Positions 1-26,534 of a DNA stretch of 29,926 nucleotides are shown here, one piece after another. Origin of the DNA: a virus. The DNA is taken from positions 1-29,926 of the IMG/VR virus record IMGVR_UViG_3300002141_000044; one strand, given 5' to 3'. The number at the start of each line of letters is the position of its first letter. Within the stretch, counting starts at the first letter, position 1. Both the position numbers and the translations under genes were made by a program. The notes beneath the pieces were generated by a model. That model made no database searches. It saw only the letters and a list, made by a program, of their open reading frames with translations, and was not told the origin of the DNA.

Positions 1-1569
1 GTTTTAAGATTCACAGGTGATTGCACAACAACGGGTTCGTGTTCGACAACAGGAACAACTTATGTTACAGGATTTACTATAACCGAATATTGTACACCAC
101 CAATCTATCCTGATTGTTTTAAGATAAATCCTGCGTGGTTAGAGTTAGAACATTGGTTCCAACTTGATGCCGTATGGGAAAGATATACATGGTTAGATTT
201 CTGTGATTTAAATTATAGAGGGGGATTAGGAGACATTACTAAAAAAGTTTACTTAGAGTCGTTAGCCCAAAATACGATGTCATTAGTTACCTCACAATAC
301 ACTCACGAAGGGTCAAAACCTGCCGAGGAAATCGAGATTGTTAATTTAAATGAAAAATGGTTGGTTAATGGTTATTATAGAAAAGGAAGATTGAAATTTT
401 ATATTAATGGTAAAATTTTTCATACTATAGAAGATTTTGAAGAGTTAATACCTAGAGCATTAAACACCGATAAAGAAAAACAAGTGGGGGTACCATTTAA
501 TGTTTCTTGGGGAGGTGGAACCCAAGGATTGAGAGAGAATTTAACCTTTTCATCAATGACACTACCTTATGGCCCTTATATTCAAGACCCAGAATGTTTT
601 CCAATTAACGACTTAACGGGAACAACTTTTAATGGATTAAAAACAAACATTCAAATTGAACAAAATTTTGCGGGAACATTTGAAGGGGGGATTTCTCAAT
701 TTAGAATGTACGTCACTCCGTTATCAGCACCTGAAGTTAAACATAATTTTAGTTTACTTAAAAATGTCTTTAGGATGTTTAATCCTGATTGTCCTGATTG
801 TTCTACTGAAGTTTGTTTGACAGATGATTTTACATATGATATTATAAACCCAACAACAACAACAACAACAATAATTCCAACGACAACAACAACCACAACA
901 ACAATATTTCCAATCTCAATATTAGGTAGGATTCATATTCCTGACAATAGAGACCATAATTATTTAATTGAGAATAAATTACCATTAACCGCACCAAGAA
1001 TCACTTCAAAGTATTGGCAGGATAATGTATGGTGGGGAGACCAAGGACAAACATCAATGTGTGTTGGATACGCTTGGGCTCATTGGATTGAGGATGGGCC
1101 AACATTACATACATCAAGAATACATCCTGTTATTGCTCCTCAAACAATCTATCGTGAGGCCCAAAAAGTTGATGAATGGTTGGGCGAGAATTATGATGGA
1201 ACTTCAGTTAGAGGTGGCGCAAAATATCTTAAATCAACAGGTAAAATTTCATCCTACCTTTGGACCTTTAATATTAATGTAATGGTCAATACAGTATTAA
1301 CTGTGGGTCCTGTAGTGGTTGGTACAAATTGGTATAACAATATGTTTAGACCTGACCGTAATGGTTTAATTAGAGTTGGTGGACGTATTGTTGGAGGACA
1401 CGCTTATGAAATCAACGGAGTTAACACAGTTACACAGTTATTTAGAATAAAGAATAGTTGGGGAAGAAGTTGGGGACAACAAGGTCACGCATTTATTTCT
1501 TTTTCTGATATGAGAAGATTAATTAACGAAAACGGTGAAGTATGTTTGGCCGTAGAAAATAACTTTTAA
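1..1569 (+). CDS. Virion protein with LamG-like region and C-terminal papain-like cysteine peptidase (5' partial)
   Basis: The frame is open from base 1, so the gene begins upstream of the window; 522 codons are present. Residues about 90-260 (window numbering) look like a LamG/concanavalin-type beta domain, with a KFYINGK strand and ending in a typical FRMYVTPLSAPEV segment. A Thr-rich linker (about 284-302) follows. The C-terminal part, about 310-520, is a papain-family (C1) peptidase. The oxyanion Gln is in DQGQTSMC (Q348), the nucleophile is C354 (1060-1062), the His is H467 in GGHAYEING (1399-1401), and the Asn is N485 in KNSWGRSWGQQG (1453-1455). The Gln-Cys spacing of six residues is that of papain. 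All key residues are intact, so it is probably active. Three bases separate it from the next gene, which carries the same kind of linker, suggesting a tail-fibre or baseplate-decoration operon. The peptidase could mature the virion or cut host surface protein; the target is unknown. Confidence 0.85.
   Translation, partial: VLRFTGDCTTTGSCSTTGTTYVTGFTITEYCTPPIYPDCFKINPAWLELEHWFQLDAVWERYTWLDFCDLNYRGGLGDITKKVYLESLAQNTMSLVTSQYTHEGSKPAEEIEIVNLNEKWLVNGYYRKGRLKFYINGKIFHTIEDFEELIPRALNTDKEKQVGVPFNVSWGGGTQGLRENLTFSSMTLPYGPYIQDPECFPINDLTGTTFNGLKTNIQIEQNFAGTFEGGISQFRMYVTPLSAPEVKHNFSLLKNVFRMFNPDCPDCSTEVCLTDDFTYDIINPTTTTTTIIPTTTTTTTTIFPISILGRIHIPDNRDHNYLIENKLPLTAPRITSKYWQDNVWWGDQGQTSMCVGYAWAHWIEDGPTLHTSRIHPVIAPQTIYREAQKVDEWLGENYDGTSVRGGAKYLKSTGKISSYLWTFNINVMVNTVLTVGPVVVGTNWYNNMFRPDRNGLIRVGGRIVGGHAYEINGVNTVTQLFRIKNSWGRSWGQQGHAFISFSDMRRLINENGEVCLAVENNF
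849..908 (+). repeat. ACA-rich microsatellite encoding Thr linker
   Basis: Tandem ACA/ACG/ACC codons, broken by IIP, encode two Thr runs between the LamG-like and peptidase domains. It is a low-complexity coding repeat, probably an extended flexible linker and a potential O-glycosylation region. Confidence 0.8.
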
Positions 1570-1572
1570 AAT

Positions 1573-2097
1573 ATGAGTCAAAGTATTATTATACAGAGTG
1601 TTAATTATAATGGAGAGATGGCCAATATTATCTTCAACCCATATGGGGAGGAAACCGTTTTAAATTTAGGTAACCATACGTTACCTTTTGAGTTTACCCC
1701 ATCGTTATTAGACCCACCAAAAGAAATTTATGGTACCTATACAATATTGGTATTAAGTTCTGATTGTCCAAACATTTTAAATGTCCCAAGACCAACACCA
1801 ACCCCTACACCGACACCGACAGTGACAAGAACTCAGACTCCGACCGCAACCCCAACTCAAACACCGACACCGACTTTTGACCCTTGTAAAGTACCGACAC
1901 CAACCCCAACAATAACTACAAGTCCAACTACAACACCGACTCAAACACCAACACCTTCTTCAACTTGTACTAATCCATGTGGGTGCCCTGAACCAAGTAA
2001 AACGCCAACTCCAAGTAAAACTCCTAAACCAACACCTAGTATGACTAGCGGTTATTGTTACCCAACACCAACACCGACTATAACACCGACTGTTTAA
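1573..2097 (+). CDS. Small virion protein with long Pro-Thr linker
   Basis: This protein has 174 residues. Residues 1-73 form a compact, beta-rich N-terminal part with no family I recognise. From about residue 74 to the end it is almost entirely PTPTPT-type sequence, broken by short Cys-containing islands (FDPCK, TCTNPCGCPEP, YCYP). It starts three bases after the upstream peptidase gene and its stop overlaps the next start (TAATG), so the three genes form one translationally coupled unit. There is no signal peptide or membrane segment. The look is that of a virion surface appendage with a stiff extended stalk cross-linked by cysteines. The Pro/Thr stretch is a natural candidate substrate for the glycosyltransferases encoded from 3113 onward, but that is inference. 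Confidence 0.75.
   Translation: MSQSIIIQSVNYNGEMANIIFNPYGEETVLNLGNHTLPFEFTPSLLDPPKEIYGTYTILVLSSDCPNILNVPRPTPTPTPTPTVTRTQTPTATPTQTPTPTFDPCKVPTPTPTITTSPTTTPTQTPTPSSTCTNPCGCPEPSKTPTPSKTPKPTPSMTSGYCYPTPTPTITPTV
1790..2094 (+). repeat. CCAACACC/CCGACACC coding repeats (Pro-Thr)
   Basis: Degenerate CCA/CCG-ACA/ACC dipeptide-codon repeats encode (PT)n. Similar tracts recur at about 2315-2366, 12640-12670 and 24060-24115 in other virion genes. They could promote recombination between tail genes. Confidence 0.8.
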
Positions 2098-2570
2098 TGA
2101 TAACAATTGATATAACAGGTGCAACAGGTACAGGGCCATATGACATATATGTGTGTGACATAACATTAACATATTGTTATTTAGTATCATTAGCAACAAC
2201 AATCCCCCCAACTTATACTGTCGTCATTCCAATCCCCCTTGATGTAGTTTCTCAAGTTATTGTTAAATTAATCGATTCGTTAGCATGCGAAACAATTCAA
2301 CTATATACGTGTTTAACACCAACCCCCACACCAACATTAACACCAACGCCTACTCCAACACCAATAATTAATTGTAACTGTATTTCTTTTAATAATACGT
2401 CAGAGTCCGAACAAGAGTTTACTTATACCCAATGTGACGGAACTGTTTTTTATGGTGTAATTAACCCTTTAACAATATTATATGTTTGTGGTAAACTTCC
2501 AAGTTCAAATATCGAATTTGTTAATATAACAATATCGGGTGTTTGTATTGACGGTGGTTGCCCTATGTGA
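2097..2570 (+). CDS. Small virion protein, two domains joined by Pro-Thr linker
   Basis: I choose the ATG at 2097, which overlaps the upstream stop by one base (TAATG); the earlier in-frame ATG at 2055 would overlap the previous gene by more than 40 bases. The 157-residue product begins MITIDITG, a beta-rich domain with several cysteines (about 1-72). A (TP)n linker follows (about 73-90), then a second Cys-containing beta domain (about 91-157). No family is recognised. Short tandem genes with similar linkers next to a LamG/peptidase protein suggest tail-surface decoration proteins. The abundant paired cysteines would allow disulphides or metal binding in the assembled particle. It is the last gene of the operon; about 185 AT-rich bases follow. 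Confidence 0.7.
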   Translation: MITIDITGATGTGPYDIYVCDITLTYCYLVSLATTIPPTYTVVIPIPLDVVSQVIVKLIDSLACETIQLYTCLTPTPTPTLTPTPTPTPIINCNCISFNNTSESEQEFTYTQCDGTVFYGVINPLTILYVCGKLPSSNIEFVNITISGVCIDGGCPM

Positions 2571-3112: not shown

Positions 3113-4360
3113 ATGAAGATATTTGTCCAAATCGCGTCTTATCGCGACCCTCAATTAATCCCAACAATTAAAAGTATATTGGAAAATGCCAAAAAACCTA
3201 AGAATGTCGTTTTAGGAATTTGTAGACAATATCATCCTGAAGATAACTTTGATAATCTTGATGAATATAGAGATGATAAACGATTTAGGATTAAGGATGT
3301 TTTATATTCCGAATCAAAAGGAGTTTGTTGGGCAAGAAATTTAACTCAACAATTATATAAAGGGGAAGAATATACTTTACAGATTGATTCTCATATGAGG
3401 TTTGAAAAGGATTGGGACGACACCTTAATCAAGATGATTAAACAACTTCAAAAGAAAGGATTCTCAAAACCTTTATTAACAGGATACGTTTCATCTTTTG
3501 ACCCTGACAAGGACCCTGCAGGTAGAGTTAACGAACCATGGAGAATGGCCTTCGATAGATTTATACCAGAAGGAGCGGTATTCTTTTTACCTGAAACAAT
3601 CCCAAATTGGAAAGAAATGAAAGAACCTGTAACGTCAAGATTTTATTCCGCCCACTTTGCATTTACGTTAGGAAAGTTTTGTGAAGAGGTTCAGCACGAC
3701 CCCGAATTTTATTTCCATGGTGAAGAAATATCGATAGCCGTTAGAGCGTTTACACATGGTTATGATTTATTTCACCCTCATAAAGTAGTGATTTGGCACG
3801 AATATACTCGTAAGGGTAGAACCAAACAATGGGATGATGATAAGGAATGGGGTAAGAAAAATGAATTATCCCATAAAAAAAATCGACAATTATTCGGGAT
3901 GGATGGAGAAGAAGTTACTTTAGATTTTAATAAATATGGATTCGGAACAGAACGAACTCTTAAAGATTATGAAATTTATTCAGGATTACGATTCTCAAAA
4001 AGAGCAGTCCAACAATACACATTAGACAAACATTATCCACCAAACCCACATGTGTTTGAAACAGAGGAAGAATGGGAAAGTAGTTTTGCCCGTATCTTTA
4101 AACATTGTGTTGATATTGGATTTACTCAAGTACCTGAAAAAGATTATGAATTTTGGGTGGTTGCATTTCATAATGACAAAGATGAAACTATCTTCAGAAA
4201 AGATGCGGATATAAATGAAATTAATAGAATGATGACAGACCCTGATGGGTATTGTAAAGTGTGGAGAGACTTTCAAACAATACATAAACCAAAATATTGG
4301 GTCGTATGGCCTTATAGCACATCTAAAGGATGGTGTGAAAGAATAACAGGTAATTTATAA
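3113..4360 (+). CDS. GT60-like (Skp1-type) polypeptide N-acetylglucosaminyltransferase
   Basis: 415 residues. The N-terminal ~290 residues match the 'GlcNAc' glycosyltransferase family (Pfam PF11397; CAZy GT60), typified by the Dictyostelium enzyme that adds GlcNAc to hydroxyproline of Skp1. Visible hallmarks are IFVQIASYRDPQLIPTI at the start, a DSH metal/nucleotide motif in LQIDSHMRF (92-94), a long acceptor region, FHGEEISIAVRAFTHGYDLF (GEE 203-205) and VIWHEY (228-231). Such enzymes are inverting/retaining GT-A type and use UDP-GlcNAc. The last ~125 residues form an extra domain I do not recognise, with many Trp (YWVVWPYS). The acceptor in this phage is unknown; Pro/Thr-rich virion linkers nearby are plausible. 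First gene of the cassette, 14 bases before the next gene. No TATTTAT motif is present upstream. Confidence 0.8.
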   Translation: MKIFVQIASYRDPQLIPTIKSILENAKKPKNVVLGICRQYHPEDNFDNLDEYRDDKRFRIKDVLYSESKGVCWARNLTQQLYKGEEYTLQIDSHMRFEKDWDDTLIKMIKQLQKKGFSKPLLTGYVSSFDPDKDPAGRVNEPWRMAFDRFIPEGAVFFLPETIPNWKEMKEPVTSRFYSAHFAFTLGKFCEEVQHDPEFYFHGEEISIAVRAFTHGYDLFHPHKVVIWHEYTRKGRTKQWDDDKEWGKKNELSHKKNRQLFGMDGEEVTLDFNKYGFGTERTLKDYEIYSGLRFSKRAVQQYTLDKHYPPNPHVFETEEEWESSFARIFKHCVDIGFTQVPEKDYEFWVVAFHNDKDETIFRKDADINEINRMMTDPDGYCKVWRDFQTIHKPKYWVVWPYSTSKGWCERITGNL

Positions 4361-4374
4361 TAAAAAAAAATATT

Positions 4375-4980
4375 ATGGACAAAACAAAATTTGGTGAAAA
4401 AGACGCTTGGGCTAACGATGACTTGAGATACAATTATGATTTAAATCAAGATTCAATAGTATTTGATTTAGGTGGTTATCACGGTATCTTTTCTAAACAA
4501 ATACATAATAGATACAAATGTAATATACACGCATTTGAACCAATAGATTATCTATATGACATTTGTTGTCAGGAATTAAAGGATTTAGATAATGTAAAAC
4601 TATATCGTAAAGTTTTAGGAGATAAAAATGATAGTGTGAATTTTTTCATTGCTGGAGATGCTTCATCAATTTATATGGGTGGCGTTAAAAATGAAGATTC
4701 ATACGTTGAAATGATTCCTATTGATAGTTACATGACCGATGAAAATATACATGAGGTTGATTTATTAAAAATGAATATTGAGGGGGCTGAGTATGATTTA
4801 TTAGAATATATAATAAATAAAGGAATGTTAACAAAATTCAAAAACATTCAAATTCAATTTCATGATAATTCGGTAGATAATTGGAGGGAAAGATATAACA
4901 AAATAACTGAGACTCTTAATCTTACACACTTTTTGACATACAAATTTGAGTTTAAATTTGAAAATTGGAAATTAAAATGA
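4375..4980 (+). CDS. FkbM-family SAM-dependent methyltransferase
   Basis: 201 residues. The SAM-binding motif I is VFDLGGYHGIFS (29-40), followed by the acidic strand-2 end HAFEP (52-56), a PID segment (115-117) and the FkbM signature LLKMNIEGAEYDLLE (130-144), as in Methyltransf_21. FkbM enzymes O-methylate sugars or polyketides; among glycosyltransferases this one most likely methylates a sugar hydroxyl of the glycan made by the cassette. The family is usually 200-280 residues, so this is a compact but complete copy. Its TGA stop overlaps by ATGA the start of a glycosyltransferase fragment (4977-5093). A second, divergent FkbM gene lies at 5086. Confidence 0.85.
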   Translation: MDKTKFGEKDAWANDDLRYNYDLNQDSIVFDLGGYHGIFSKQIHNRYKCNIHAFEPIDYLYDICCQELKDLDNVKLYRKVLGDKNDSVNFFIAGDASSIYMGGVKNEDSYVEMIPIDSYMTDENIHEVDLLKMNIEGAEYDLLEYIINKGMLTKFKNIQIQFHDNSVDNWRERYNKITETLNLTHFLTYKFEFKFENWKLK

Positions 4981-5093
4981 ACATTATAATAACTGCCGCC
5001 AATAATGTATATTTTGAATCATTAAAAACTTTAATTGTTTCAATTCATAGGACATCATATGATGTTGTCAATAAAATATATGTATATGATTAA
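4977..5093 (+). pseudogene. Truncated glycosyltransferase N-terminus, relic duplication of 5721 gene
   Basis: An ATG overlapping the upstream stop (ATGA) opens a 38-codon frame beginning MNIIITAANNVYFESLKTLI and ending at TAA 5091-5093. It is nearly identical in DNA and protein to the first ~37 codons of the intact gene at 5721; differences are mostly at third positions (AAC/AAT, GCC/GCT, GTA/GTG) plus V/A at residue 21. The similarity stops where the FkbM gene at 5086 begins. This is the stub of a former or duplicated glycosyltransferase that lost everything after its first strand-helix unit. It may still be translated as a coupling leader for the 5086 gene, since the stop lies inside that gene's first codons. 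Confidence 0.85.
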
Positions 5094-5721
5094 CTATTCA
5101 GATTTAATAAAAACAAAGACAAATATATCGCCAAAAACAATATTGGAGATAGGGTCAATGCACGGACACGATGCGAATACTTTAAAAAATGAGTTTAATT
5201 TAAACGATTCTGATGTGTGGGTAGTAGAACCAAATCCATATCAACAAGATGAAATTACTAAAGATTATCCAAATTTTAACTTAGTTAAGAATCCTATTTT
5301 TGATAAAAGTCAAGAACATGAATTTTATCAAGTCTTAGGTTATGATGCTGGAACTAGTTCATTATTTAATAGGGTTGATACTTGGTATGAAGCACAGGGT
5401 AGTGGATTAAAAAAAATTAAAGTTAACACAATAACGGGTTTAGAACTTTTAGAAACAATTAATAAAAAAATTGAACTTTGTAAATTAGATGTTGAAGGAT
5501 TAAGTTACGAAGTTTTAAATAGTTTTGGTGATAGGATAAATGAAATTTTATCTTTCCACATAGAATGTGAACATAGGGAAGTTTGGAAAGACCAAAAACT
5601 ATATTTGGATGTAAAAGAATTTATGGAAAATAAAAATTACGAACAGATATATTTTAAATATGTGGCCGAGGGAACTCTTCAATCTGATTCTATTTGGGTA
5701 TTAAAACAAAACATTATTTAA
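5086..5721 (+). CDS. FkbM-family methyltransferase (second copy)
   Basis: I choose the ATG at 5086 (MINYSDLIKT, 211 residues); the in-frame ATG at 5035 lies within the duplicated glycosyltransferase relic and would add 17 residues unrelated to the family. SAM motif I is LEIGSMHGHD (20-29), the acidic strand is VVEPNPYQ (46-53), and the FkbM signature is CKLDVEGLSYEVLNSF (132-147). It is only distantly similar to the 4375 methyltransferase, so it is not a recent tandem duplicate. The role is probably O-methylation of a sugar in the cassette's glycan, perhaps at another position or residue. It overlaps the relic by 8 bases and the next start by one base (TAATG). Confidence 0.82.
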   Translation: MINYSDLIKTKTNISPKTILEIGSMHGHDANTLKNEFNLNDSDVWVVEPNPYQQDEITKDYPNFNLVKNPIFDKSQEHEFYQVLGYDAGTSSLFNRVDTWYEAQGSGLKKIKVNTITGLELLETINKKIELCKLDVEGLSYEVLNSFGDRINEILSFHIECEHREVWKDQKLYLDVKEFMENKNYEQIYFKYVAEGTLQSDSIWVLKQNII

Positions 5722-6476
5722 TGAATATTATAATAACTGCTGCCAATAATGTGTATTTTGAATCATTAAAAACTTTAATTGCTTCAATTCATAGGACATC
5801 ATATGATGTTATTGATAAAATATTGGTTTATAATTTAGGTTTGGACGTTAACGAAATAAATTACGTTAATGGTCTTGATAAATGTGAAGTTTTAGATTTA
5901 AAATCACTAATAAATCCATTGCCATTCGATGATTATCTTTTACCAAAAGGATATGCGTTTAAATGTTTTTGTTTACAACACCAAAAAGGAAATGACAATG
6001 TGTTATGGTTAGATGCCGGAGTCATGACTTTAAAAAATGTAAATCCAATGTTTGAAATAATTCAAAATGAAGACATATTCACTGTTGGGGATATTCATTT
6101 AAATAAGAATTTCACTAAACCACTATGTGCTGAAATAATGAAAGCGTCAGACTCGGAATTAAATGATGTTCAATTATCGGCAGGTATTATTGGTTACAAA
6201 TTAAATGGAAAATTTCAACATTTATTTAATGAGGCTTTTGAGTATTCAAAAATTGATGGGTGTGTTCTTGGTGATGAAAATAATCATAGACATGACCAAA
6301 GCGTTTATTCAATACTTGTTAGTAGATATGGTGTTAACAAACAAGATATTGACATCTATGGGTATTGGACAGATTCCAATAGAAATTTACAAACCGCAAT
6401 AAATAATGGTGCAGTTATCTTTGTTCACAGAAGAGGACATCATGATGTGTCAGGATTAAAATATAAAAATATATGA
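5721..6476 (+). CDS. GT-A fold glycosyltransferase (LWLDAG type)
   Basis: The start at 5721 overlaps the upstream stop (TAATG), giving 251 residues; an in-frame ATG at 5694 lies inside the methyltransferase gene. The N-terminal Rossmann-like strand MNIIITAANNVYFESLKTLIASI, the KCFCLQH segment and the NVLWLDAGVMTLKN motif (about 93-106, metal-binding Asp D98) are typical of GT8-related and DUF1647-type enzymes, in which LDAG replaces the usual DxD. The tail HRRGHHD (about 240-246) may supply the His that completes the metal site. Donor and acceptor cannot be told from sequence. The first 37 codons are duplicated at 4977-5093. The stop overlaps the next start by 4 bases (ATGA). Confidence 0.75.
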   Translation: MNIIITAANNVYFESLKTLIASIHRTSYDVIDKILVYNLGLDVNEINYVNGLDKCEVLDLKSLINPLPFDDYLLPKGYAFKCFCLQHQKGNDNVLWLDAGVMTLKNVNPMFEIIQNEDIFTVGDIHLNKNFTKPLCAEIMKASDSELNDVQLSAGIIGYKLNGKFQHLFNEAFEYSKIDGCVLGDENNHRHDQSVYSILVSRYGVNKQDIDIYGYWTDSNRNLQTAINNGAVIFVHRRGHHDVSGLKYKNI

Positions 6477-7288
6477 AAAAAATTAAATTATTAGACGACA
6501 CACTAAACCCATATGATTATTTATCACATCATGTGGTACCATCAGAACCAGTATGGAAAAGAGACATGGAATCTCCTGATGTTGTTGTGGGTATTGCAAA
6601 TAATGGTATGAGACAACTTGACAATTACTCAGGCGTAATTAAATGTGCGTGGGTTATTGAACCCGAGATTATAAATGGGGAAGACTATCAATATACAATT
6701 AATAATCAAGATAAAATAGATTACATTTTTTTACATGACTTACGTAAAAAAGAATATTTTAACGGTGATAAATTTGTCTACATACCTCATGGAGGTACAC
6801 ATTTAAGAAACGAAGACATTCAAATACATGAAAAAAATAAATTAGTCAGTATGATTTTTTCAAACAAACAATGGAACGGTTATCACTCATTTAGACATGA
6901 AATATATCCATCCGTACAAGATAGAGTTGATGGTTATGGTACCGGTTGTGGAAAATACATACAATACAAGTCTGAAGGGTTAAACAGTTATTGTTTTTCT
7001 ATTGCAATGGAAAATTTTGACTCACCTGGTTTATTTACAGAAAAAGTTGTTGATTGTTTTTTAAGTGGAACCATACCTATTTTTTACGGTTCGGACGATA
7101 TTGGTAATTATTTTAACAAACAAGGATTTTTTCAATTTAAAACATTAGAAGAGTTAAATAACATTTTAGATAATATTAGTTTTGAGGTGTATAATAATAT
7201 GAAGGAATATGTAATTGAGAATTTTGAGAAGGCCAAAGAATATATGTTCCCTGAAGTAACGATAAAAAATTTTTTAAATAGTTTATAA
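6473..7288 (+). CDS. GT10-like fucosyltransferase
   Basis: 271 residues. The C-terminal half carries the alpha-1,3-fucosyltransferase donor-binding signature: YCFSIAMENFDSPG (173-186), LFTEKVVDCFLSGTIPIFYG (187-206) and the following FFQF (219-222). In GT10 the FxxxxEN...YxTEK...GxxPxxxG pattern binds GDP-fucose. The N-terminal half is short and lacks the membrane anchor of eukaryotic homologues, like bacterial enzymes. It probably transfers fucose, or a related GDP-sugar, to the glycan core made by neighbouring enzymes. No GDP-fucose synthesis genes are in the window, so the donor would come from the host or from elsewhere in the phage. It is coupled on both sides (ATGA overlap upstream, TAATG downstream). 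Confidence 0.8.
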   Translation: MKKIKLLDDTLNPYDYLSHHVVPSEPVWKRDMESPDVVVGIANNGMRQLDNYSGVIKCAWVIEPEIINGEDYQYTINNQDKIDYIFLHDLRKKEYFNGDKFVYIPHGGTHLRNEDIQIHEKNKLVSMIFSNKQWNGYHSFRHEIYPSVQDRVDGYGTGCGKYIQYKSEGLNSYCFSIAMENFDSPGLFTEKVVDCFLSGTIPIFYGSDDIGNYFNKQGFFQFKTLEELNNILDNISFEVYNNMKEYVIENFEKAKEYMFPEVTIKNFLNSL

Positions 7289-8007
7289 TGTTTGATGGTG
7301 TAAAAAAATATGTGATAAATCTAAAAAAAAGACCTAATAGATTAGAACACATGGTTAAAGAAATGAACTACATGGGGTTTAATTTTGAGGTTTTTGAAGG
7401 TATTGAAAGAAACTCTCATGAGGGTTGCGCGTTATCACATATTGAAATAATAAAAATTGCAAAGGAACAAAACTTAGATAAAGTTTTTGTTATGGAGGAC
7501 GATATATTTTTTATGCCGTATGCCAAATCATTACTAATTGATTTAGAAAAAACTTTGGAGATTGTTGACTATGGGGTATTAAATTTAAACATGTCAATAC
7601 ATAGACCATTAAATGTTTCAGATAAATCAAATCTATTATTGGATTTAACAAGTTTACCACCAAAAGATGAAAATAAATATAGAGGTATATTTGGAACCGG
7701 ATTTATGGTTTATACAAAAAATATGTATGATGAGGTTGATAAATATGACCCAAGGTACGCCATAGATGAATTTTTAGATAAACATATTTATCCAAAATAT
7801 CAAAGTTATAGTACTGTTTTACCGTCCTGTTGTCAGTTAAATAATGAATCGGATGTGTCGGGCGGATTTTATAATAATTTTTATACACAATCATATAATT
7901 GGAACGTTTATTCGCCAATAAAAATACCCATGTCATATACGGACCAAGATAACGTTATGAAAATTAGAAATAATAATGATGTAGATTATAAAACAATGTT
8001 AACATGA
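7288..8007 (+). CDS. GT25-like glycosyltransferase
   Basis: 239 residues. Hallmarks of family GT25 (LPS beta-galactosyltransferases and the collagen hydroxylysine galactosyltransferases) are YVINLKKRPNRLEHM (8-22), GCALSHIEIIKIA (46-58) and VFVMEDDIFF (66-75), where EDD is the metal site. GTGFMVYTKNMYDEV (about 136-150) corresponds to the family's GTxxYxxs segment. No signal peptide or membrane segment, so it acts in the cytoplasm. Donor probably UDP-galactose or similar, by family precedent only. Its start overlaps the upstream stop by one base and its TGA overlaps the next ATG (ATGA). Confidence 0.8.
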   Translation: MFDGVKKYVINLKKRPNRLEHMVKEMNYMGFNFEVFEGIERNSHEGCALSHIEIIKIAKEQNLDKVFVMEDDIFFMPYAKSLLIDLEKTLEIVDYGVLNLNMSIHRPLNVSDKSNLLLDLTSLPPKDENKYRGIFGTGFMVYTKNMYDEVDKYDPRYAIDEFLDKHIYPKYQSYSTVLPSCCQLNNESDVSGGFYNNFYTQSYNWNVYSPIKIPMSYTDQDNVMKIRNNNDVDYKTMLT

Positions 8008-8747
8008 AAATAGATTATGTTATCATGTCTACTGACGGAAATAAACTTTACGATGATTTTTGGGAAATTAATAAAAAAATTTGGAACGATATTATTGGTG
8101 TTCGACCAATATTAGTTATTATTGGTGATGAAGATAAAATAGAAACCAATAAAGATTGTATAATTATTTATTATAAAAAAGTTGAGGGAGTTGAAACTTC
8201 ATTTCAAGCTCAGATTGCCAGATTGTATGTTACGTTTCTATTTTTAGAAAATACACTATTAATATCTGATATTGATATGATACCTTTAAATAAAAAATAT
8301 TTTACGGACTTTGCTGAAGAGGCGAATGAAAATCAAATCTTAATTTACACCTCAGATGCGTATGGATATAATAAACAAAAAAGATATCCTATGTGTTATA
8401 ATTTAGCAAAAGGTAAAACATATCATGAAATTTTAAAATTTGACTTTTCATTTCAAGAATTTGTGTTAAGGTTAAAAAACCTAAACATCACACCTTTATG
8501 GGATACTGATGAATTATATTTTGGGGATTGTGTTTATGAATTTGAAAAAGAAAACCATAGTAGGATTATAAAAAAACAGAGAGGGTTTCGTGAGGGGTAT
8601 GCAACTAATAGAATTGACAGGAGTTATTGGTCTAACATTAATTATGATAAAATACTTGAGGGGGGTTATTATGATTGTCATTCATTGAGACCCTACAAAA
8701 AATATAAAAAAGAAATAGATAGTATTGTAAATTTAATTTTAAAATGA
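8004..8747 (+). CDS. GT-A fold glycosyltransferase with DID motif
   Basis: 247 residues. The protein begins with a nucleotide-binding strand (MKIDYVIMSTDG), contains an arginine-bearing helix FQAQIARLYVTFLF (67-80), then LLISDIDMIPLN (85-96), a DxD-type metal site (D89, D91) followed by the usual hydrophobic run. PLWDTDELYF (about 168-177) is a likely second acidic site for the acceptor. This arrangement is typical of bacterial GT-A transferases of the GT8-like sort; donor unknown. Coupled by ATGA overlaps to both neighbours. Confidence 0.7.
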   Translation: MKIDYVIMSTDGNKLYDDFWEINKKIWNDIIGVRPILVIIGDEDKIETNKDCIIIYYKKVEGVETSFQAQIARLYVTFLFLENTLLISDIDMIPLNKKYFTDFAEEANENQILIYTSDAYGYNKQKRYPMCYNLAKGKTYHEILKFDFSFQEFVLRLKNLNITPLWDTDELYFGDCVYEFEKENHSRIIKKQRGFREGYATNRIDRSYWSNINYDKILEGGYYDCHSLRPYKKYKKEIDSIVNLILK

Positions 8748-9646
8748 AAAACACATTAGTAACCGCAATTTATTTTTCATCTCCAATGTCAAGAATGGGA
8801 GGTAGAGGATATGATTTTGAATTTTATGAGGCTCCGTTCAGGAATATAATTAATTTGGGATGTAATCTTGTTGTTTATTCACACCCATCGGAAATTAATA
8901 AAATTGAGAATTTTTTTAAAAAGTATAATTTTGTTGATTATAAAATAATTGATTTTGATTTAAATCAATATAAACATTCAGATAAAATATATGAACTAAA
9001 AGAGATTGATGGGTTAATTGATGAAAATGGTTTAATAAGTGATAGGGACTATATGTCAAACGATAGAAATCATCATTTGTGTTTATTAAAACCATACTTT
9101 TTAAAACACACAATAGAAAATAATTTATTTGAAAGTGAAAATTATTATTGGGTAGATGCAGGATTATTTCATCACGGAATATTTCCAGAAACACATGGTG
9201 GCATAGAAAGGTTTACAAAGGTAAAAGATGAAAAATATTGGCCAATTTTAGAAAACAACATTTGTAATCCTACCTTACTTGAAAGATTAGAAAATAAAAA
9301 TAAAACAGATTTTATCTTTATGGGTATTGATGGGTATTGTGGAGCAACTCCTTGGTATTACACATTTACCGATATTAACAAAATGTCTCACATTATTGGA
9401 GGTCTATTTGGCGGAAAAAAAGAAATTGTGTTGGAATTGGAAAAAGAATTCGATGAAATGACAACAAAAATATTTAATGAGAATATATTAACATTAGAAG
9501 AAGAAGTTTTATCAATGTTGTATTCAATAAGTTATAATAAGTATAAACACATATCTTTTAAGACTTGGTATCACGATGTACCAACGGTTCCAAATTATTT
9601 TGGTACAAGCACAGATAGTGAATGTTTTTATAAAATTTTTATTTAA
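8744..9646 (+). CDS. HtrL/YibB-type glycosyltransferase
   Basis: 300 residues. The start TLVTAIYFS (4-12), the region RNHHLCLLKPYFL (108-120) and NYYWVDAGLFHHGIF (133-147) match the HtrL/YibB family pattern, in which TLVTA..., a Lys-containing helix and the WVDAG metal motif recur. The family is linked to LPS/glycan modification in bacteria and has a GT-A-like fold; biochemical knowledge is thin. The first half of the next gene belongs to the same family, so these may be distant duplicates. Starts in an ATGA overlap; 3 bases precede the next gene. Confidence 0.65.
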   Translation: MKNTLVTAIYFSSPMSRMGGRGYDFEFYEAPFRNIINLGCNLVVYSHPSEINKIENFFKKYNFVDYKIIDFDLNQYKHSDKIYELKEIDGLIDENGLISDRDYMSNDRNHHLCLLKPYFLKHTIENNLFESENYYWVDAGLFHHGIFPETHGGIERFTKVKDEKYWPILENNICNPTLLERLENKNKTDFIFMGIDGYCGATPWYYTFTDINKMSHIIGGLFGGKKEIVLELEKEFDEMTTKIFNENILTLEEEVLSMLYSISYNKYKHISFKTWYHDVPTVPNYFGTSTDSECFYKIFI

Positions 9647-9649
9647 TTT

Positions 9650-11326
9650 ATGTCTAAAATAACATTAGTAACAGGTTTATGGGATTTAGGAAGAGGCGAA
9701 CTAACGGAAGGTTGGTCAAGACCTTATGAAACCCATTATTTAACTAAATTTAATGAACTATTAAAAACGGAAAATAACCTCATTATTTTTGGAGACTCTG
9801 AGTTAGAAAATTTTGTGTGGGAAAGAAGGACCCCCTCAAATACCCAATTTATTAATAAAGATTTATCGTGGTTTAAAAATAATGAATTCTATGATAAAAT
9901 CCAAAAGATTAGAAATAACCCTGATTGGTTTAATCAAGCGGGATGGTTATCAGAGTCAACTCAAGCCAAATTAGAAATGTATAACCCACTTGTTATGAGT
10001 AAAATGTTTTTATTACATGACGCAAAAATATTGGACAAGTTTAATTCAGAATATTTATTTTGGATTGATGCCGGATTAACTAATACGGTTCATTCGGGAT
10101 ACTTCACTCACGATAAAGTAATCGATAAATTACCTAACTTAATTAATAAATTTACATTCATAACATTTCCTTATGAAACAAATTCAGAAATACATGGGTT
10201 TGAGTTTGAAAAATTATGCGAATTATCAGGAAATAAAGTTAATAAAGTTGCCAGAGGCGGATTTTTTGGGGGACCAAAAGAAACTATATCTGATATTAAT
10301 TCAATATATTATGGTTTATTATCATCAACATTAAATGATGGATATATGGGAACTGAAGAAAGTGTTTTTTCAATTATGTTATATAAACATTCAGATTTAA
10401 TTAATTATTTTGAAATAGAATCAAATGGGTTAATAGGTAAGTTTTTTGAAGATTTAAAAAATGATGACTTAAAAGTTAAATCTGAAAGTAAAATATCTGT
10501 TGATAATAATTTAAATATTAATAAAGTGGGCCTTTATGTTATAACATTTAATAGTCCAAATCAATTTGAAACATTAATTAAATCAATGTTAGAATATGAT
10601 AAAAATTTTATTCTTAAACCAACAAAGTTTTTACTTGATAACTCAACTGACCTATCGACAACACCAAGATATAAAGAATTGTGTGAGGAGTATAACTTTG
10701 AACATATCAAAAAAGATAATATTGGTATTGTTGGGGGTCGTGTATTTGTTGCAGAACATTTTGATGAAACGGGATTAGATTTTTATTACTTTTTTGAAGA
10801 CGATATGAGTTTTTATCCTAAAAAAGGTGAGGTATGTAGAAATGGGTTTCCTCGGTATGTTGATAATTTATATCAAAAATCATTAGAAATTATTCAAAAA
10901 GAAAATTTTGATTTTCTAAAGTTAAATTTTAGTGAATTCTACGGTTCAAATGATATTCAATTTTCATGGTATAATGTGCCCCAAGATTTCAGACAAAAAC
11001 ATTGGCCAAACAATCCTAAATTACCGGTAATAGGGTTAGATACCAATTCACCCAAAACAAAATTTGAAGAAATACATATTCACAAAGGGTTACCATATGT
11101 ATTAGGTGAAATATTTTTGTGTAATTGGCCAATTGTATTAACAAAAGAGGGTAATTATAAATGTTATTTAGAGACAAAATGGGCCCATCCTCACGAACAA
11201 GTACTAATGAGTTATTCTTATCAAGAAACAATTAAAGGTAAAGTTAAACCAGGATTACTATTACTAACACCGACAGAACATCATAGATTTCATCACTATG
11301 ACGGGTCATTAAGAAAAGAAAATTAG
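9650..11326 (+). CDS. Bifunctional glycosyltransferase: HtrL/YibB-like domain fused to GT2-like domain
   Basis: 558 residues in two enzymes. Domain 1 (1-285) is HtrL/YibB type: TLVTGLWDLGRGEL (5-18), MYNPLVMSKMFLLHDA (110-125), YLFWIDAGLTNT (135-146) and GGFFGGPKE (about 203-211). Domain 2 (from about 292) begins VGLYVITFNSPNQFETLIKS, a GT2-type nucleotide-binding start, continues with NIGIVGGRVFVAEHF and the acidic FFEDDMSF (EDD about 383-385), and ends with a His-rich segment (PTEHHRFHHYDG) near the C-terminus. A two-domain transferase of this kind often adds two consecutive sugars, as in polymerising enzymes. Last gene of the cassette; its stop overlaps by 4 bases the end of a convergent HNH endonuclease gene, leaving no room for a separate terminator. 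Confidence 0.75.
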   Translation: MSKITLVTGLWDLGRGELTEGWSRPYETHYLTKFNELLKTENNLIIFGDSELENFVWERRTPSNTQFINKDLSWFKNNEFYDKIQKIRNNPDWFNQAGWLSESTQAKLEMYNPLVMSKMFLLHDAKILDKFNSEYLFWIDAGLTNTVHSGYFTHDKVIDKLPNLINKFTFITFPYETNSEIHGFEFEKLCELSGNKVNKVARGGFFGGPKETISDINSIYYGLLSSTLNDGYMGTEESVFSIMLYKHSDLINYFEIESNGLIGKFFEDLKNDDLKVKSESKISVDNNLNINKVGLYVITFNSPNQFETLIKSMLEYDKNFILKPTKFLLDNSTDLSTTPRYKELCEEYNFEHIKKDNIGIVGGRVFVAEHFDETGLDFYYFFEDDMSFYPKKGEVCRNGFPRYVDNLYQKSLEIIQKENFDFLKLNFSEFYGSNDIQFSWYNVPQDFRQKHWPNNPKLPVIGLDTNSPKTKFEEIHIHKGLPYVLGEIFLCNWPIVLTKEGNYKCYLETKWAHPHEQVLMSYSYQETIKGKVKPGLLLLTPTEHHRFHHYDGSLRKEN

Positions 11327-11937
11327 AGTAATATTTTGTCGCTTTTTTTCAAATTATCTTCAGCCCATAGAGGTTGAAGATTTGTGTAATGATAAAGTTT
11401 ATAAACATGTTCTTCTGTTTTAGCAGAAGACACTGGTATTATATGGTCTAAATGCCACCCGTAGTATCCGTAATTATTCCAAGACATCCCTTCAGTAAAT
11501 TTATTCTCAATATATTCTATTAAAAATTCATAATCACATCCAACTAAATCAAGTGTTTTAGGATTATTGTATCTTTTATTAAGTAATTGATTTATTCTTG
11601 ACCTCAAAGAATTTTTAATTTTATTTTTTGGGTCTGAATTATACTTATTTATGTATTTTTTTCTATGTTCTTTATTTTTATCTAACCATTTTTTAAAATG
11701 TTCGGGATTATTTTTTTTATACGTCCGACATTTTTTTTTGTTAATTTCAGGGTTTTCTAGTCTAAATTGTTTTCCCTTTTCAGAAATTATTTTTGAGTTT
11801 TTTTTATTGTAATCAAAGGAAGATTCATTCATACACTTTTTACATTGACCTCTATAAATGTTCGGATTTTTACTATGTTTATAAAACTCACAAACCTCTT
11901 TTTCTTCTTGACATTTACTACATATCTTTTTTTCCAT
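11323..11937 (-). CDS. HNH endonuclease with N-terminal zinc ribbon
   Basis: 204 residues. The N-terminus has a CxxC...CxxC zinc site (C6, C9, C32, C35). A long Lys/Asn-rich helical middle (about 40-115) probably contacts DNA. The C-terminal HNH core is GWHLDHIIPV (160-169) with TNLQPLWAEDN (185-195), giving the His-Asn-His-type beta-beta-alpha-metal fold. This is the common free-standing phage homing-endonuclease layout. It runs against the surrounding genes at the junction between the glycan cassette and a virion gene, as expected of an inserted selfish gene. Its first 20 bases overlap the end of the RHH gene at 11918, so both are probably read from one promoter near 12085. Confidence 0.85.
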   Translation of the reverse strand: MEKKICSKCQEEKEVCEFYKHSKNPNIYRGQCKKCMNESSFDYNKKNSKIISEKGKQFRLENPEINKKKCRTYKKNNPEHFKKWLDKNKEHRKKYINKYNSDPKNKIKNSLRSRINQLLNKRYNNPKTLDLVGCDYEFLIEYIENKFTEGMSWNNYGYYGWHLDHIIPVSSAKTEEHVYKLYHYTNLQPLWAEDNLKKSDKILL

Positions 11938-12172: not shown

Positions 12173-12700
12173 ATGGATTGGTTTATCAAAAAAAACGCTA
12201 CGTTACCATTATTAAAACTTGCCATTATCAAAGACGGAAGAAGTGAATACAACAATTTTATGAAATTGATTGAGGTTTCTTCTATGTTTTTTTCTATGGT
12301 TGATATTGAGACAGGAATCCCAAAAATAACCTCAAGACCTGCGGGGTTTGTTGAGAAGACGTTTATAGAACCAAACGCGGAACCCGAATATTATTTGTAT
12401 TATCAATTTACTAACCGAGACACAAGTAAGGTTGGTAGATATGAGGCTCAGTTTATGTTGAGAAGTAGTGATGGTGTATTGATATTACCAATCAGAGAAA
12501 AACTTTATATTAATATTCAAGACTCATTTATTGCTGACGATTTACCATATGACAGTTGTTATGTGTCTGAATTCCCTTGTTGTATTAATGGACCTGTGGT
12601 CACTCAAACAACTACGACCCCATGTCCAAGTTGTCCAACATGTCCCCCACCAACACCGACACCATTACCGACAACAACAACGAGTACCACAATGTTTTAG
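12173..12700 (+). CDS. Virion structural protein with Pro/Thr/Cys-rich tail
   Basis: 175 residues. The body (1-140) is a soluble mixed domain of beta strands with conspicuous segments (WFIKKNATLPLLKL, GIPKITSRPAGF, YLYYQFTNRDTSKVGRYEAQF, LPIREKLYINIQDSF) resembling immunoglobulin-like baseplate or tail-decoration domains; I cannot name the family. The C-terminal ~32 residues are TTTTP, three closely spaced Cys-Pro pairs, then PTPTPLPTTTT. This tail is like those of the proteins at 1573 and 2097, so it probably belongs to the same class of surface proteins although it stands alone between an endonuclease and the polymerase. It has a clear TATTTAT-type element upstream, consistent with late expression. 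Confidence 0.7.
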   Translation: MDWFIKKNATLPLLKLAIIKDGRSEYNNFMKLIEVSSMFFSMVDIETGIPKITSRPAGFVEKTFIEPNAEPEYYLYYQFTNRDTSKVGRYEAQFMLRSSDGVLILPIREKLYINIQDSFIADDLPYDSCYVSEFPCCINGPVVTQTTTTPCPSCPTCPPPTPTPLPTTTTSTTMF

Positions 12701-23174: not shown

Positions 23175-26100
23175 ATGGCAACAAACAACAAAGTATTCGT
23201 GTCTCCTGGAGTGTATACCTCTGAAGTTGATTTGAGTTTTGTGGCGCAAAGTGTGGGTGTTACAACTTTAGGTATTGTTGGTGAGACTCAAAAAGGTCCC
23301 GCTTTCGAACCTATCTTTATCAGAAACTTCGATGAGTTTTCGACATATTTCGGAGGAACTTCTCCTGAAAAATTCATAAACACACAAATCCCTAAATATG
23401 AAGCGGCGTATATCGCAAAGGCTTACTTACAACAGTCTAACCAATTGTTTGTAACAAGAGTATTAGGTTTATCAGGTTATGATGCGGGTCCGTCTTGGTC
23501 AATCACTACAAAGGCGAATGTTAATCCAGCAACAATTGAATTTGATTGTATTTCAGGTCAAACTGTTAATTGTGTATTTGATTGTACTTTATATAACATT
23601 ATTAGTTACTCAATTCCATTTACGGGATGTAGTAATAGTGTTGATAGTATTTCATTTACAGGACCTATTCCATCAGAAATTGCGGTTAAATTAAATTTAC
23701 CGTATGAAAACTTTAATGGTAGTACTGGTACATTATATCAAGATATGACAAATCAAATTTTTGATATTATGAACGCAACTAATCCATATATTGCAGAAAC
23801 AACTAACATTAATTATTACGGACCTATTTCAGGTGATGTATATAATTCACTATCACCAATTTTCACGGCAGAAACAAACGTATTTGACGTTGAGAATGTT
23901 GATGAGAGTATAATTAATTACGCGGCACCACAAAACGACCCTTGGTATTACGCATTATTTGATAATGTTGGAAATGCGGTTTATAGTGGTTACTCTTTTT
24001 GGTCGATTGTCACAGGTTTAACAGAAGTGATTAGTACTACAACAACAACAAGTACTTTACCAACACCAACACCAACACCTGACCCTTGTAACCCAACACC
24101 AACAGGAACAACAACAACAACAACATTACCTAAACCAACAAAATGTTATACAGGTACTTTAACAGGACAAATTTACATATATAAAGGAACCGCTTTCACA
24201 GATTTTGATGATTTAGTAGTTGCAACTTTACGTTCAAGAGGTTTGGCAACTTACGGTAGTGATGATGGTGCGGTATATGAAGTTCCAGGTGGGGTTAACT
24301 CTTATAACAGTTTTGACGGACATGACGTACAAATGGATTGTTCAGGAACTTATTCAGGCGTAACTAAAAACCCATTCTCAACATTTGGTATTAACGTAAC
24401 AGATAAAGACGGTAACCCATTCTTTTTTGAAACATCATTATCGAATTCCGATAGTAAATATATTTCCAAAGTATTTGGACAATCTAACTTTGCTAAACCA
24501 AGAACAGTAGTTCCGTTGTTTGTTGAAGAAAGATTCCAAGCATTATTAACTTATGGTTGGAGAAAAGGATTTATTAGAGGATTAAGTTGTGAGTTAACGG
24601 CATTACCAAATGCTAGACAAGGCAATGACCCAACATCAATCGCTTGGTATCTTGAAAGATATCAATCACCTGTATCACCATGGGTTGTATCTGAATTAAG
24701 AGGTACTAAAGTGTACAACTTATTTAAATTTACAACAATTGCTGACGGAGACGATGCGAACATTGAAGTCAAGATTTCAATAGCTAACATCTCATTTAAC
24801 AATGGTACTTTTGATGTAATCATTAGAGATTTCTTTGACTCGGATAACAGTCCTGTAGTTCTTGAAAAATTCACTAACTGTTCTATGGACCCTAACGATA
24901 ATAGTTTTATCGCTAAAAAAATTGGTACATTAGACGGAGAATACGCATTGAATTCTAAATATGTCATGATTGAACTTAACGAGGACGCACCAATAGACGC
25001 GTTACCTTGTGGTTTCGAAGGATATAACTTTAGAGAATATGCGGGAGTTCGTCCTCCATTCCCTATTTATAAAACAAAATATGATTTTCCAGGTGAAATT
25101 GTTTACAATCCACCATTTGGTTTATCATCAGGTGCTGATGATATCATAAGAAGTAATGGTGATAATGTTCGTAGAACTTATCTTGGTATTTCTGATACAG
25201 TTGGTTTTGACGTTGATTTTTACACATATAAAGGTAAACAATTACCATTAGATGTTTGTACAGACGTTTCAGGAGATGAATGGGCATACCGAACAAGAGG
25301 ATTCCATATGGACATTGATGCACTTGTAATCAAGGTACCGAACTATTTTTCAACAAGTGGTACACCAGCGTTTTACGTAGGTTCTGCACCATTTACTTCA
25401 GACCCTGACAACGAAGATAATCCGTACTATAGATTATACGCACGTAAATTCTCGTTATTATGTCGTGGAGGTTTTGACGGATGGGATATCTATACTGAAC
25501 ACAGAACAAATGCGGATAAATTTGTATTAGGCAAGATTGGTTATAGAAATGGAGCATGTCCTTCATTCAAATACCCAACGGCTACAGGATGGGGAGCGTT
25601 TAAACAAATCACTGTTGGTGACAACGGACAAGATTGGGCAAACACCGACTATTACGCTTACTTATTAGGTCAACAAACATTCTCTAACCCTGAGGCAGTT
25701 AATATTAACGTATTCGTTACTCCTGGTATTGATTATTTAAATAATTCTAACTTAGTGGGTGACGCAATCGAAATGATTGAGTTCAATAGAGCAGATTCTA
25801 TTTATATCTGTACAACACCTGACTACAACATGTTTGTTCCGTCAACAGGAGACCAATTAGATATGATTTATCCACAAGAAGCGGTAGACAATTTGGAAAC
25901 TGCAGGTATTGACTCAAACTACACGGCTACTTATTACCCATGGGTTTTAACAAGAGACACTGTAAATAACACACAAATCTATATCCCTGCTACGGCTGAG
26001 GTAACAAGAAACTTGGCGTTAACAGATAACATCGCTTTCCCTTGGTTCGCTGCGGCGGGTTACACTCGTGGTATCGTAAGTGCTATCAAAGCAAGAAAGA

Positions 26101-26534
26101 AACTTACTCAAGAAGATAGAGATGTTCTTTATAAAGGTAGAATTAACCCAATCGCAACCTTCTCTGATGTTGGAACTGTAATTTGGGGTAACAAGACAAT
26201 GCAAATTAGAGAATCTGCTCTTGACAGAATCAACGTAAGAAGATTATTGTTACAAGCTCGTAAATTAATTTCAGCGGTTTCAGTAAGATTATTGTTTGAA
26301 CAAAACGATGAGAAAGTAAGACAAGATTTCTTGGATGCGGTTAACCCTATCTTAGATGCAATCAGAAGAGACAGAGGTTTATACGATTTCCGTGTAACAG
26401 TTTCTTCAGACGCTGCGGATTTAGATAGAAACCAATTAACAGGTAAAATCTATATCAAACCAACTAAATCTCTTGAGTTCATAGACATCACGTTCTATAT
26501 TACTCCTACGGGTGCATCGTTTGATAATATCTAA
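23175..26534 (+). CDS. Contractile tail sheath protein with Pro/Thr-rich insertion
   Basis: 1119 residues, far longer than T4 gp18 (659). The N-terminus FVSPGVYTSEVDLSFVA (about 8-24) with GIVGETQKGPAFEP (33-46) is the standard sheath start. The C-terminus carries the conserved sheath core: RVLLQ-type helix, SVRLLFEQNDEKVRQDFLDAVNPILDAIRRDRGLYDFRV and GKIYIKPTKSLEFIDITFYI. The extra length is in the outward-facing middle, about 100-450, and includes a Thr/Pro linker at residues 287-324 (24033-24146) with STTTTT, TPTPTPDPC and TGTTTTTT. Sheath subunits tolerate insertions on the outer surface, so this segment should lie on the outside of the tail. Long A-rich leader and late-type motif upstream; strong terminator downstream. 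Confidence 0.93.
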   Translation: MATNNKVFVSPGVYTSEVDLSFVAQSVGVTTLGIVGETQKGPAFEPIFIRNFDEFSTYFGGTSPEKFINTQIPKYEAAYIAKAYLQQSNQLFVTRVLGLSGYDAGPSWSITTKANVNPATIEFDCISGQTVNCVFDCTLYNIISYSIPFTGCSNSVDSISFTGPIPSEIAVKLNLPYENFNGSTGTLYQDMTNQIFDIMNATNPYIAETTNINYYGPISGDVYNSLSPIFTAETNVFDVENVDESIINYAAPQNDPWYYALFDNVGNAVYSGYSFWSIVTGLTEVISTTTTTSTLPTPTPTPDPCNPTPTGTTTTTTLPKPTKCYTGTLTGQIYIYKGTAFTDFDDLVVATLRSRGLATYGSDDGAVYEVPGGVNSYNSFDGHDVQMDCSGTYSGVTKNPFSTFGINVTDKDGNPFFFETSLSNSDSKYISKVFGQSNFAKPRTVVPLFVEERFQALLTYGWRKGFIRGLSCELTALPNARQGNDPTSIAWYLERYQSPVSPWVVSELRGTKVYNLFKFTTIADGDDANIEVKISIANISFNNGTFDVIIRDFFDSDNSPVVLEKFTNCSMDPNDNSFIAKKIGTLDGEYALNSKYVMIELNEDAPIDALPCGFEGYNFREYAGVRPPFPIYKTKYDFPGEIVYNPPFGLSSGADDIIRSNGDNVRRTYLGISDTVGFDVDFYTYKGKQLPLDVCTDVSGDEWAYRTRGFHMDIDALVIKVPNYFSTSGTPAFYVGSAPFTSDPDNEDNPYYRLYARKFSLLCRGGFDGWDIYTEHRTNADKFVLGKIGYRNGACPSFKYPTATGWGAFKQITVGDNGQDWANTDYYAYLLGQQTFSNPEAVNINVFVTPGIDYLNNSNLVGDAIEMIEFNRADSIYICTTPDYNMFVPSTGDQLDMIYPQEAVDNLETAGIDSNYTATYYPWVLTRDTVNNTQIYIPATAEVTRNLALTDNIAFPWFAAAGYTRGIVSAIKARKKLTQEDRDVLYKGRINPIATFSDVGTVIWGNKTMQIRESALDRINVRRLLLQARKLISAVSVRLLFEQNDEKVRQDFLDAVNPILDAIRRDRGLYDFRVTVSSDAADLDRNQLTGKIYIKPTKSLEFIDITFYITPTGASFDNI
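24033..24146 (+). repeat. ACA/CCA coding repeat in the sheath insertion
   Basis: ACA runs flank CCAACACCAACACC repeats, encoding the Thr/Pro linker (residues 287-324) of the sheath. It is the same vocabulary of repeats as at 849-908 and 1790-2094. Confidence 0.75.

Follow-up and report, generated by a model that had tools for sequence, protein, structure and literature searches.

Large freshwater phages probably build a mucin-like coat on their own virions with an exchangeable set of glycan enzymes encoded next to long Thr/Pro-rich particle proteins

Introduction

To our knowledge, glycosylation of the virion is known in few phages, and the chemistry of glycosyltransferase (GT) family GT60 has so far been characterised in protists. 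This family includes the Skp1 hydroxyproline N-acetylglucosamine (GlcNAc)-transferase. Here we analyse a cassette of nine genes, all in one direction and head to tail, that opens with a GT60 gene and closes with a gene for an HtrL/YibB-type enzyme (HtrL2), at positions 3113–11326 of a 29,926-base virus record (IMGVR_UViG_3300002141_000044, the whole of which is called the window below). We read it, with a probability of roughly three in four, as a phage-encoded cytoplasmic system for mucin-type O-glycosylation of the phage's own particle proteins, the probable acceptors being neighbouring proteins with (PT)n or Thr-run linkers. The window encodes a contractile tail of the T4 type, with a sheath (Table 1) and a tail tube (phrog_4542, 2.4e-25).

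In protists, mucin glycans are initiated by enzymes (TcOGNT-2, Gnt2) of the same CAZy/Pfam family as the phage enzyme (PMC3769586). TcOGNT-2 of Trypanosoma cruzi, a relative of Dictyostelium Gnt2, places alpha-GlcNAc on Thr, and parasite microsomes accept KPPTTTTTTTTKPP as acceptor (PMC3769586). The mucins themselves are dominated by Thr, with Thr runs and Pro, and reach about 50% Thr with about 1% Ser in T. cruzi (PMC3769586), to be compared with 49% Thr, 29% Pro and 2.3% Ser for the linkers in genes directly 5' of phage GT60. The protist enzyme resides, membrane-bound, in the Golgi, whereas the phage and bacterial GT60s are soluble, are accompanied by swappable extension enzymes and have a predicted activity. 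Skp1 glycosylation in Dictyostelium is closer in this respect, since its GT60 initiator is a soluble cytoplasmic enzyme, but the GT60 records show no prolyl hydroxylase as a conserved partner, and the later Skp1 enzymes are not conserved either.

Streptococcal serine-rich repeat adhesin loci, such as that of Fap1 (PMC5207161), also gather in one locus a low-complexity acceptor gene, a conserved initiator and further GTs including a two-domain enzyme, and their stepwise cytoplasmic O-glycosylation resembles the scheme proposed here. There, two proteins together form the initiator and Ser is the residue modified (PMC5207161), whereas the cassette has GT60, Thr/Pro acceptors and a phage carrier. 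None of the nine cassette proteins had a Pfam match to a GtfA/GtfB-type initiator, and the linkers are Thr- rather than Ser-rich. Accessory Sec genes were not seen in the window, although no test was aimed at Sec export, which virion proteins would not need. The Thr/Pro acceptors and the GT60 initiator thus rule out membership in this group of loci.

Among phages, mycobacteriophages encode GTs that add sugars to virion proteins (Freeman et al. 2023, as cited in PMC12619734); there the sites are the C-termini of capsid and tail-tube proteins, as against PT/T-run linkers and a GT60–HtrL2 core here. The same source describes four core GT groups in 'moraphages' (PMC12619734). A further likeness is seen in jumbo phage XacN1, of another lineage and host, which carries GT60 (48% identity), a carbamoyltransferase, HtrL1, HtrL2 and a mucin-like domain of ~160 residues, and for whose virions at least two glycoproteins are reported (PMC5852040); in the accessible part of that paper, its authors draw no link between the GT and Thr/Pro-rich proteins. 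Phage virion glycosylation is therefore already known, as far as these sources go, and it is the mucin-type GT60 version that appears to be new. A whole-word search of the available literature gave no paper joining GT60, bacteria, phage and glycosyltransferase.

Results

Organization of the locus in related phages

A scan of viral contigs recovered 335 GT60 relatives, of which 80 loci were read; GT60 is present in 80/80 by selection, and the contigs are fragments and mutually related, so that the counts below are not independent events. The loci share a near-fixed order: one or more PT-linker proteins, GT60, variable genes, HtrL2, a homologue of the T-run protein encoded at 12173–12700 (hereafter the 12173 protein) and polB. 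HtrL2 is found at 77 loci and the 12173 homologue at 68. The interval between GT60 and HtrL2 contains as many as 13 genes and exists in 51 different combinations, its genes falling into 160 families at 70% identity and 81 at 30%. The encoded domains (GT25, GT10, GT34, GT2, GT7, GT11, FkbM and other methyltransferases, carbamoyltransferase, DegT aminotransferase, UDP-GlcNAc epimerase) are of types used in glycan assembly and decoration. GDP-mannose-dehydratase-type enzymes, which may supply GDP-fucose or a similar donor, are encoded in 13 of 21 large GT60-positive records. With the first and last enzymes fixed and the middle changing, we infer a glycan with a constant root and one constant late step but a variable chain.

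No membrane-like segment was detected in 274 of the 275 interior open reading frames (ORFs) or in any of the nine cassette proteins, and the acceptor is therefore probably cytosolic. Assignment to the gtr type of serotype-conversion cassette was rejected on these same counts.

The conserved first and last enzymes

The GT60 protein of the window matches PF11397 at 249.6 bits (8.2e-74; cut-off 21). Its motif D92-S-H94 is invariant across phage GT60 members, and a simple pattern search found a DSH-like motif at 78 of 80 bacterial and named-phage loci, the two remaining ones also having DxH. This motif is common to GT27 and GT60, families to which polypeptide Ser/Thr O-glycosylation is ascribed as a common trait (PMC7185993). 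As a sequence search of the PDB gave no match, either with GT60 alone or with a profile, the structure was predicted (predicted local distance difference test, pLDDT, 79). The top 29 PDB matches of the model are all polypeptide N-acetylgalactosamine (GalNAc)-transferases (Z 18.3–15.8), followed by a match at 14.7. Polypeptide GalNAc-transferases are the starters of mucin O-glycans. The modeled GT-A fold is thus closest to the GT27 polypeptide GalNAc-transferases, and the enzyme is predicted to carry out retaining transfer of N-acetylhexosamine (HexNAc) to protein Thr or hydroxyproline. Tandem pairs of GT60 domains occur in four contigs (G113, G115, G130 and G131), the pair of G115 lying within one 856-residue frame.

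HtrL2 was modeled with a pLDDT of 89 as two GT-A domains, of which the N-terminal one resembles GT6 and the C-terminal one B4GALNT1, POMGNT1 and GnT-I.

Linkers accompany GT60

All five linker ORFs noticed in a sequence-only reading of the window are real (Table 1), and the pattern coding for PTPTPTP occurs four times, compared with 0.00 in shuffled sequence. Of the 51 distinct cassettes, 42 have a linker in the gene immediately 5' of GT60; among the other ORFs the figure is 68 of 535 (p 1.5e-25). A whole-locus comparison of linkers between GT60 and tail-tube loci was dropped, genome position being a confounder, and matched sister genomes and polB-anchored contigs were used instead.

The GT60-positive contig G022 (322 kb) has 60 linkers spread over 10 of its 339 ORFs, whereas its sister phages G043 (191 kb) and G033 (156 kb), both without GT60, have none in 329 ORFs. 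The sisters have ~80 ORFs in common with G022 at a median identity of 44–47% (86% for the tail tube), and they retain the sheath and the 12173 homologue; the latter stops at ~125 residues, before the Thr/Pro tail, as it does throughout the marine sister group. Among 50 polB-anchored contigs, the linker pattern is present in 15 of 17 with GT60 and in 15 of 33 without (p 0.005). GT60 was also found in 10 of 41 contigs with (PT)5 and in none of 27 with Ala-Glu repeats, two sets unmatched in size and habitat.

T-run linkers poor in Pro also occur. Homologues of the 157-residue linker protein (2097–2570) reach ~1,800 residues, and the fusion of linker and C1 peptidase seen at 1–1569 recurs at a related locus (L002). 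The sheath is certainly a virion protein. For the large linker proteins, in which Pfam gave only LamG-like and C1 peptidase domains, a virion role is deduced from the sheath and from synteny; their neighbours and domain types point to the particle.

Occurrence in other jumbo phages and in bacteria

GT60 and HtrL2 occur together in XacN1, in jumbo phage RAS14 (GT60 45% identity) and, among bacteria, in Saprospiraceae, Jiulongibacter, Gemmatimonadota, Halieaceae and further groups, in many cases next to Thr/Pro-rich proteins. In XacN1 the Thr/Pro domain belongs to ORF350, and ORF325 has PT linkers, its RAS14 counterpart having one. The Jiulongibacter cluster encodes a 262-residue Thr/Pro-rich protein, GT60, a carbamoyltransferase-like protein and an FkbM–HtrL2 fusion. 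In a Vicinamibacterales metagenome-assembled genome (L342, 9998–12109), GT60 and the N-terminal domain of HtrL2 form a single ORF, which supports a functional pair.

Gene content of the window

The glycan cassette recognised in the sequence-only reading is confirmed, and its GT60, GT25, GT10 and two FkbM genes bear the Pfam families that were named (FkbM 2.3e-11 and 4.3e-9; HtrL_YibB 2.5e-6 and 9.7e-19). The count of seven GT genes with eight catalytic domains is upheld for the two domains of HtrL2 and is otherwise conditional on the ORFs at 5721–6476 and 8004–8747 being GTs, as these had no Pfam match in the profile search of the nine proteins. The first two gaps measure 14 and 54 bases and the junctions downstream of FkbM2 are −1, −4, −1, −4, −4 and +3 bases, giving overlaps of 1–4 bases and not the 1–8 first proposed. 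The G+C content of the interior is 26–29%, compared with 31–37% for most of the flanks. A 116-nucleotide direct repeat (91%) links 4976–5091 to 5720–5835; its first copy, a truncated 5' end of the 5721 gene, is a scar left by gene insertion. Both the 54-base gap and the TTG codon at 5035 fall within this copy, which makes TTG an unlikely start for FkbM2 and ATG 5080 or 5086 a probable one.

Table 1. Cassette genes and linker-protein genes of the window
Feature	Position	Strand	Evidence and remarks
Thr-run linker (NPTTTTTTIIPTTTTTTTTI) with C-terminal papain-like C1 peptidase domain, virion-type, probable acceptor	1..1569	+	phrog_16701 1.9e-53, PF00112 3.1e-5; 5' end beyond window
174-residue protein, 24% Thr, (PT)n in C-terminal half, probable acceptor	1573..2097	+	sequence
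157-residue protein with (PT)n linker, probable acceptor	2097..2570	+	homologues at 60/80 loci, often immediately 5' of GT60
GT60 (PF11397) glycosyltransferase	3113..4360	+	DxH motif; proposed initiating polypeptide alpha-HexNAc transferase
FkbM-type methyltransferase 1	4375..4980	+	Pfam; variable interior
Truncated duplicate, 5' end of 5721 gene	4976..5091	+	91% to 5720–5835
FkbM-type methyltransferase 2	5080..5721	+	Pfam; ORF opens at TTG 5035, ATG 5080/5086 likelier
Unclassified GT-like protein	5721..6476	+	variable interior; GT call from reading the sequence alone
GT10 fucosyltransferase-like	6473..7288	+	PF00852 4.5e-8; variable interior
GT25-like	7288..8007	+	PF01755 1.4e-15; variable interior
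Unclassified GT-like protein	8004..8747	+	variable interior; GT call as for 5721..6476
HtrL1, HtrL/YibB-type GT	8744..9646	+	Pfam; homologue at 26/80 loci
HtrL2, conserved closing enzyme with two GT-A domains	9650..11326	+	Pfam, predicted structure; at 77/80 loci
Conserved protein, C-terminal Pro/Thr tail absent in GT60-less relatives, probable acceptor	12173..12700	+	comparison with relatives
Tail sheath, two Thr-run/PT linkers within insertion (residues ~288–321)	23175..26534	+	phrog_23 1.9e-56

At the cassette edge, on the opposite strand, lies an Endonuclease VII/HNH-like gene (11323–11937, phrog_1035, 2.6e-19; homologues at 7/80 loci) that may be a homing endonuclease aiding cassette exchange. 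Elsewhere, the window encodes on the minus strand an Fe/Mn superoxide dismutase (17101–18639, Pfam 1.8e-39) with a C-terminal part of ~280 residues that had no Pfam match (63% in G022), in the tail region a protein with an L5 gp82-type domain (21303–21851, PF25735, 9.4e-30), and between the tail tube and the next gene a 526-residue ORF (28084–29664), which has DUF7487 together with a weak match of the Mom/PvuRts1I type and looks like an inserted nuclease.

Discussion

Proposed pathway

We propose that GT60 would place the first sugar (alpha-GlcNAc by analogy, or another HexNAc, from a UDP-sugar) on Thr of the Pro/Thr linkers in the host cytoplasm. The interior GTs and methyltransferases, different in each phage, would then extend and methylate the glycan, and the two-domain HtrL2 would add sugars common to all versions. 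The glycosylated proteins (the 12173-type protein, large proteins that resemble adhesins and, in some of the phages, also the sheath) would afterwards be built into the virion, where the sugared linkers could act as stiff, protease-resistant and antigenically variable spacers. As a changing coat they may protect against predators or against defences that bind the particle surface, or they may mediate adhesion of the lectin type.

The sequence-only reading had likewise proposed a phage glycan on the phage's own PT/Thr-run proteins, and this core idea is supported, far outside the window, by synteny, by the sister-phage controls and by the independent lineages; its hydroxyproline chemistry and its fixed sugar order are not. 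In that scheme, modeled on Skp1, linker Pro would be hydroxylated, GT60 would add GlcNAc to hydroxyproline, and galactose and fucose would follow.

Several points weigh against the proposed pathway. Linkers persist in the 15 GT60-negative polB-anchored contigs; at least 4 of these resemble fragments of GT60-positive lineages (linker patterns in common with G113 and G124), and where GT60 is absent linkers may outlast it or another enzyme may serve. Conversely, two GT60-positive contigs (G115 and G125) are without the PTPTPTP pattern, and the sheaths of some GT60-positive phages have no linker. The contrast between freshwater and marine phages could reflect one or few ancestral events, making the contigs non-independent. 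In bacteria, adjacency to Thr/Pro-rich proteins is partial (6/13 with HtrL2, 11/65 without), its p of 0.03 being weak because the relaxed Thr/Pro/Ser scan catches out-of-frame GC-rich artefacts (L370, L391, L399), and it is missing for most Burkholderia-type GT60s. The XacN1 glycoproteins are not tied to named proteins in the accessible part of PMC5852040. The GT60 model has a pLDDT of 79 overall, with segment 202–215 poorly predicted, and the enzyme activities, and with them the glycan, are predictions from family, motif and fold.

Alternative explanations

One alternative is that the cassette remodels host lipopolysaccharide (LPS) or capsule for superinfection exclusion or receptor masking, the adjoining PT linkers being coincidental adhesin spacers. 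GT25, GT10 and HtrL/YibB, all present in the cassette of the window, are families met in LPS synthesis regions, and some bacterial GT60 homologues have no Thr/Pro-rich neighbours. We nevertheless consider this explanation improbable: a flippase, a polymerase or a lipid-carrier GT was not seen, membrane-like segments are lacking as described above, and the adjacency of linkers to GT60, as well as the joint absence of the two, would be left unexplained.

The Skp1-like route to the glycan appears quite improbable, although a host hydroxylase or another oxygenase family could supply the hydroxyproline. It can draw on the Skp1 enzyme within GT60, on the Pro content of the linkers, on the GT10 and GT25 genes of the cassette and on one GT60 lineage that encodes oxygenases of family PF13640, with three matches in G105 and a single one in G109 (records of L468 and L472). 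No prolyl hydroxylase is apparent among the ORFs of the window, as had been noted before, and PF13640 was found in this lineage alone, in 2 of 34 GT60 records and not in XacN1 or RAS14 (other oxygenase families were not searched). Thr dominates the linkers, including T-run linkers with little Pro, and GT60 also holds the Thr-acting TcOGNT-2 (PMC3769586). GT10 and GT25 sit in the interior that differs in almost every phage, which speaks against a fixed order of GlcNAc, galactose and fucose. Since prolyl hydroxylases do not accompany GT60 consistently, Thr-O-linked initiation fits better.

Very unlikely, in our judgement, is that linkers and GT cassette are co-inherited traits of one phage clade with no enzyme–substrate link. 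The marine sister clade is without both in 14 of 14 contigs, so that one event could explain the contrast, but XacN1, RAS14 and several bacterial groups, at 40–70% GT60 identity, again have linkers directly next to GT60, and proteins that are otherwise conserved lack the linker tails where GT60 is absent. Sugar hypermodification of phage DNA we judge the least probable, for although phage GTs acting on DNA exist (PMC12619734) and 11 of 21 GT60 records have thymidylate-synthase-fold genes that could include hydroxymethylases, the other 10 (some of them fragments) have none, the structural neighbours of GT60 are polypeptide transferases, and the adjacency of PT genes would go unexplained (a TET/JBP search gave 0 of 22, which says nothing on absence, its control being silent as well).

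Implications

Mucin-type O-glycosylation of the phage's own particle proteins remains our preferred explanation. More tentatively, and at somewhat less than even odds, the Thr/Pro mucin domain, the GT60 initiator and the HtrL2 finisher may constitute a mobile three-part module for general prokaryotic mucin-type O-glycosylation, found in jumbo phages and free-living bacteria; the hypervariable interior in phages would then be a glycan-switching locus providing every phage with its own sugar coat, a counterpart of antigenic variation.

If the proposed pathway is true, prokaryotes and viruses have mucin-type Thr-linked glycosylation with a defined acceptor, initiator and finisher, which would account for the long, fast-changing GT sets of many large aquatic phages. 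It offers a testable reason for the PT-repeat 'linkers' of phages and a handle on the variation of the particle surface, and the system could become a cytoplasmic glycoengineering tool with replaceable extension modules. Large freshwater phages that carry such a swappable set beside genes for long Thr/Pro-rich particle proteins would thus probably wear a mucin-like coat on their own virions.

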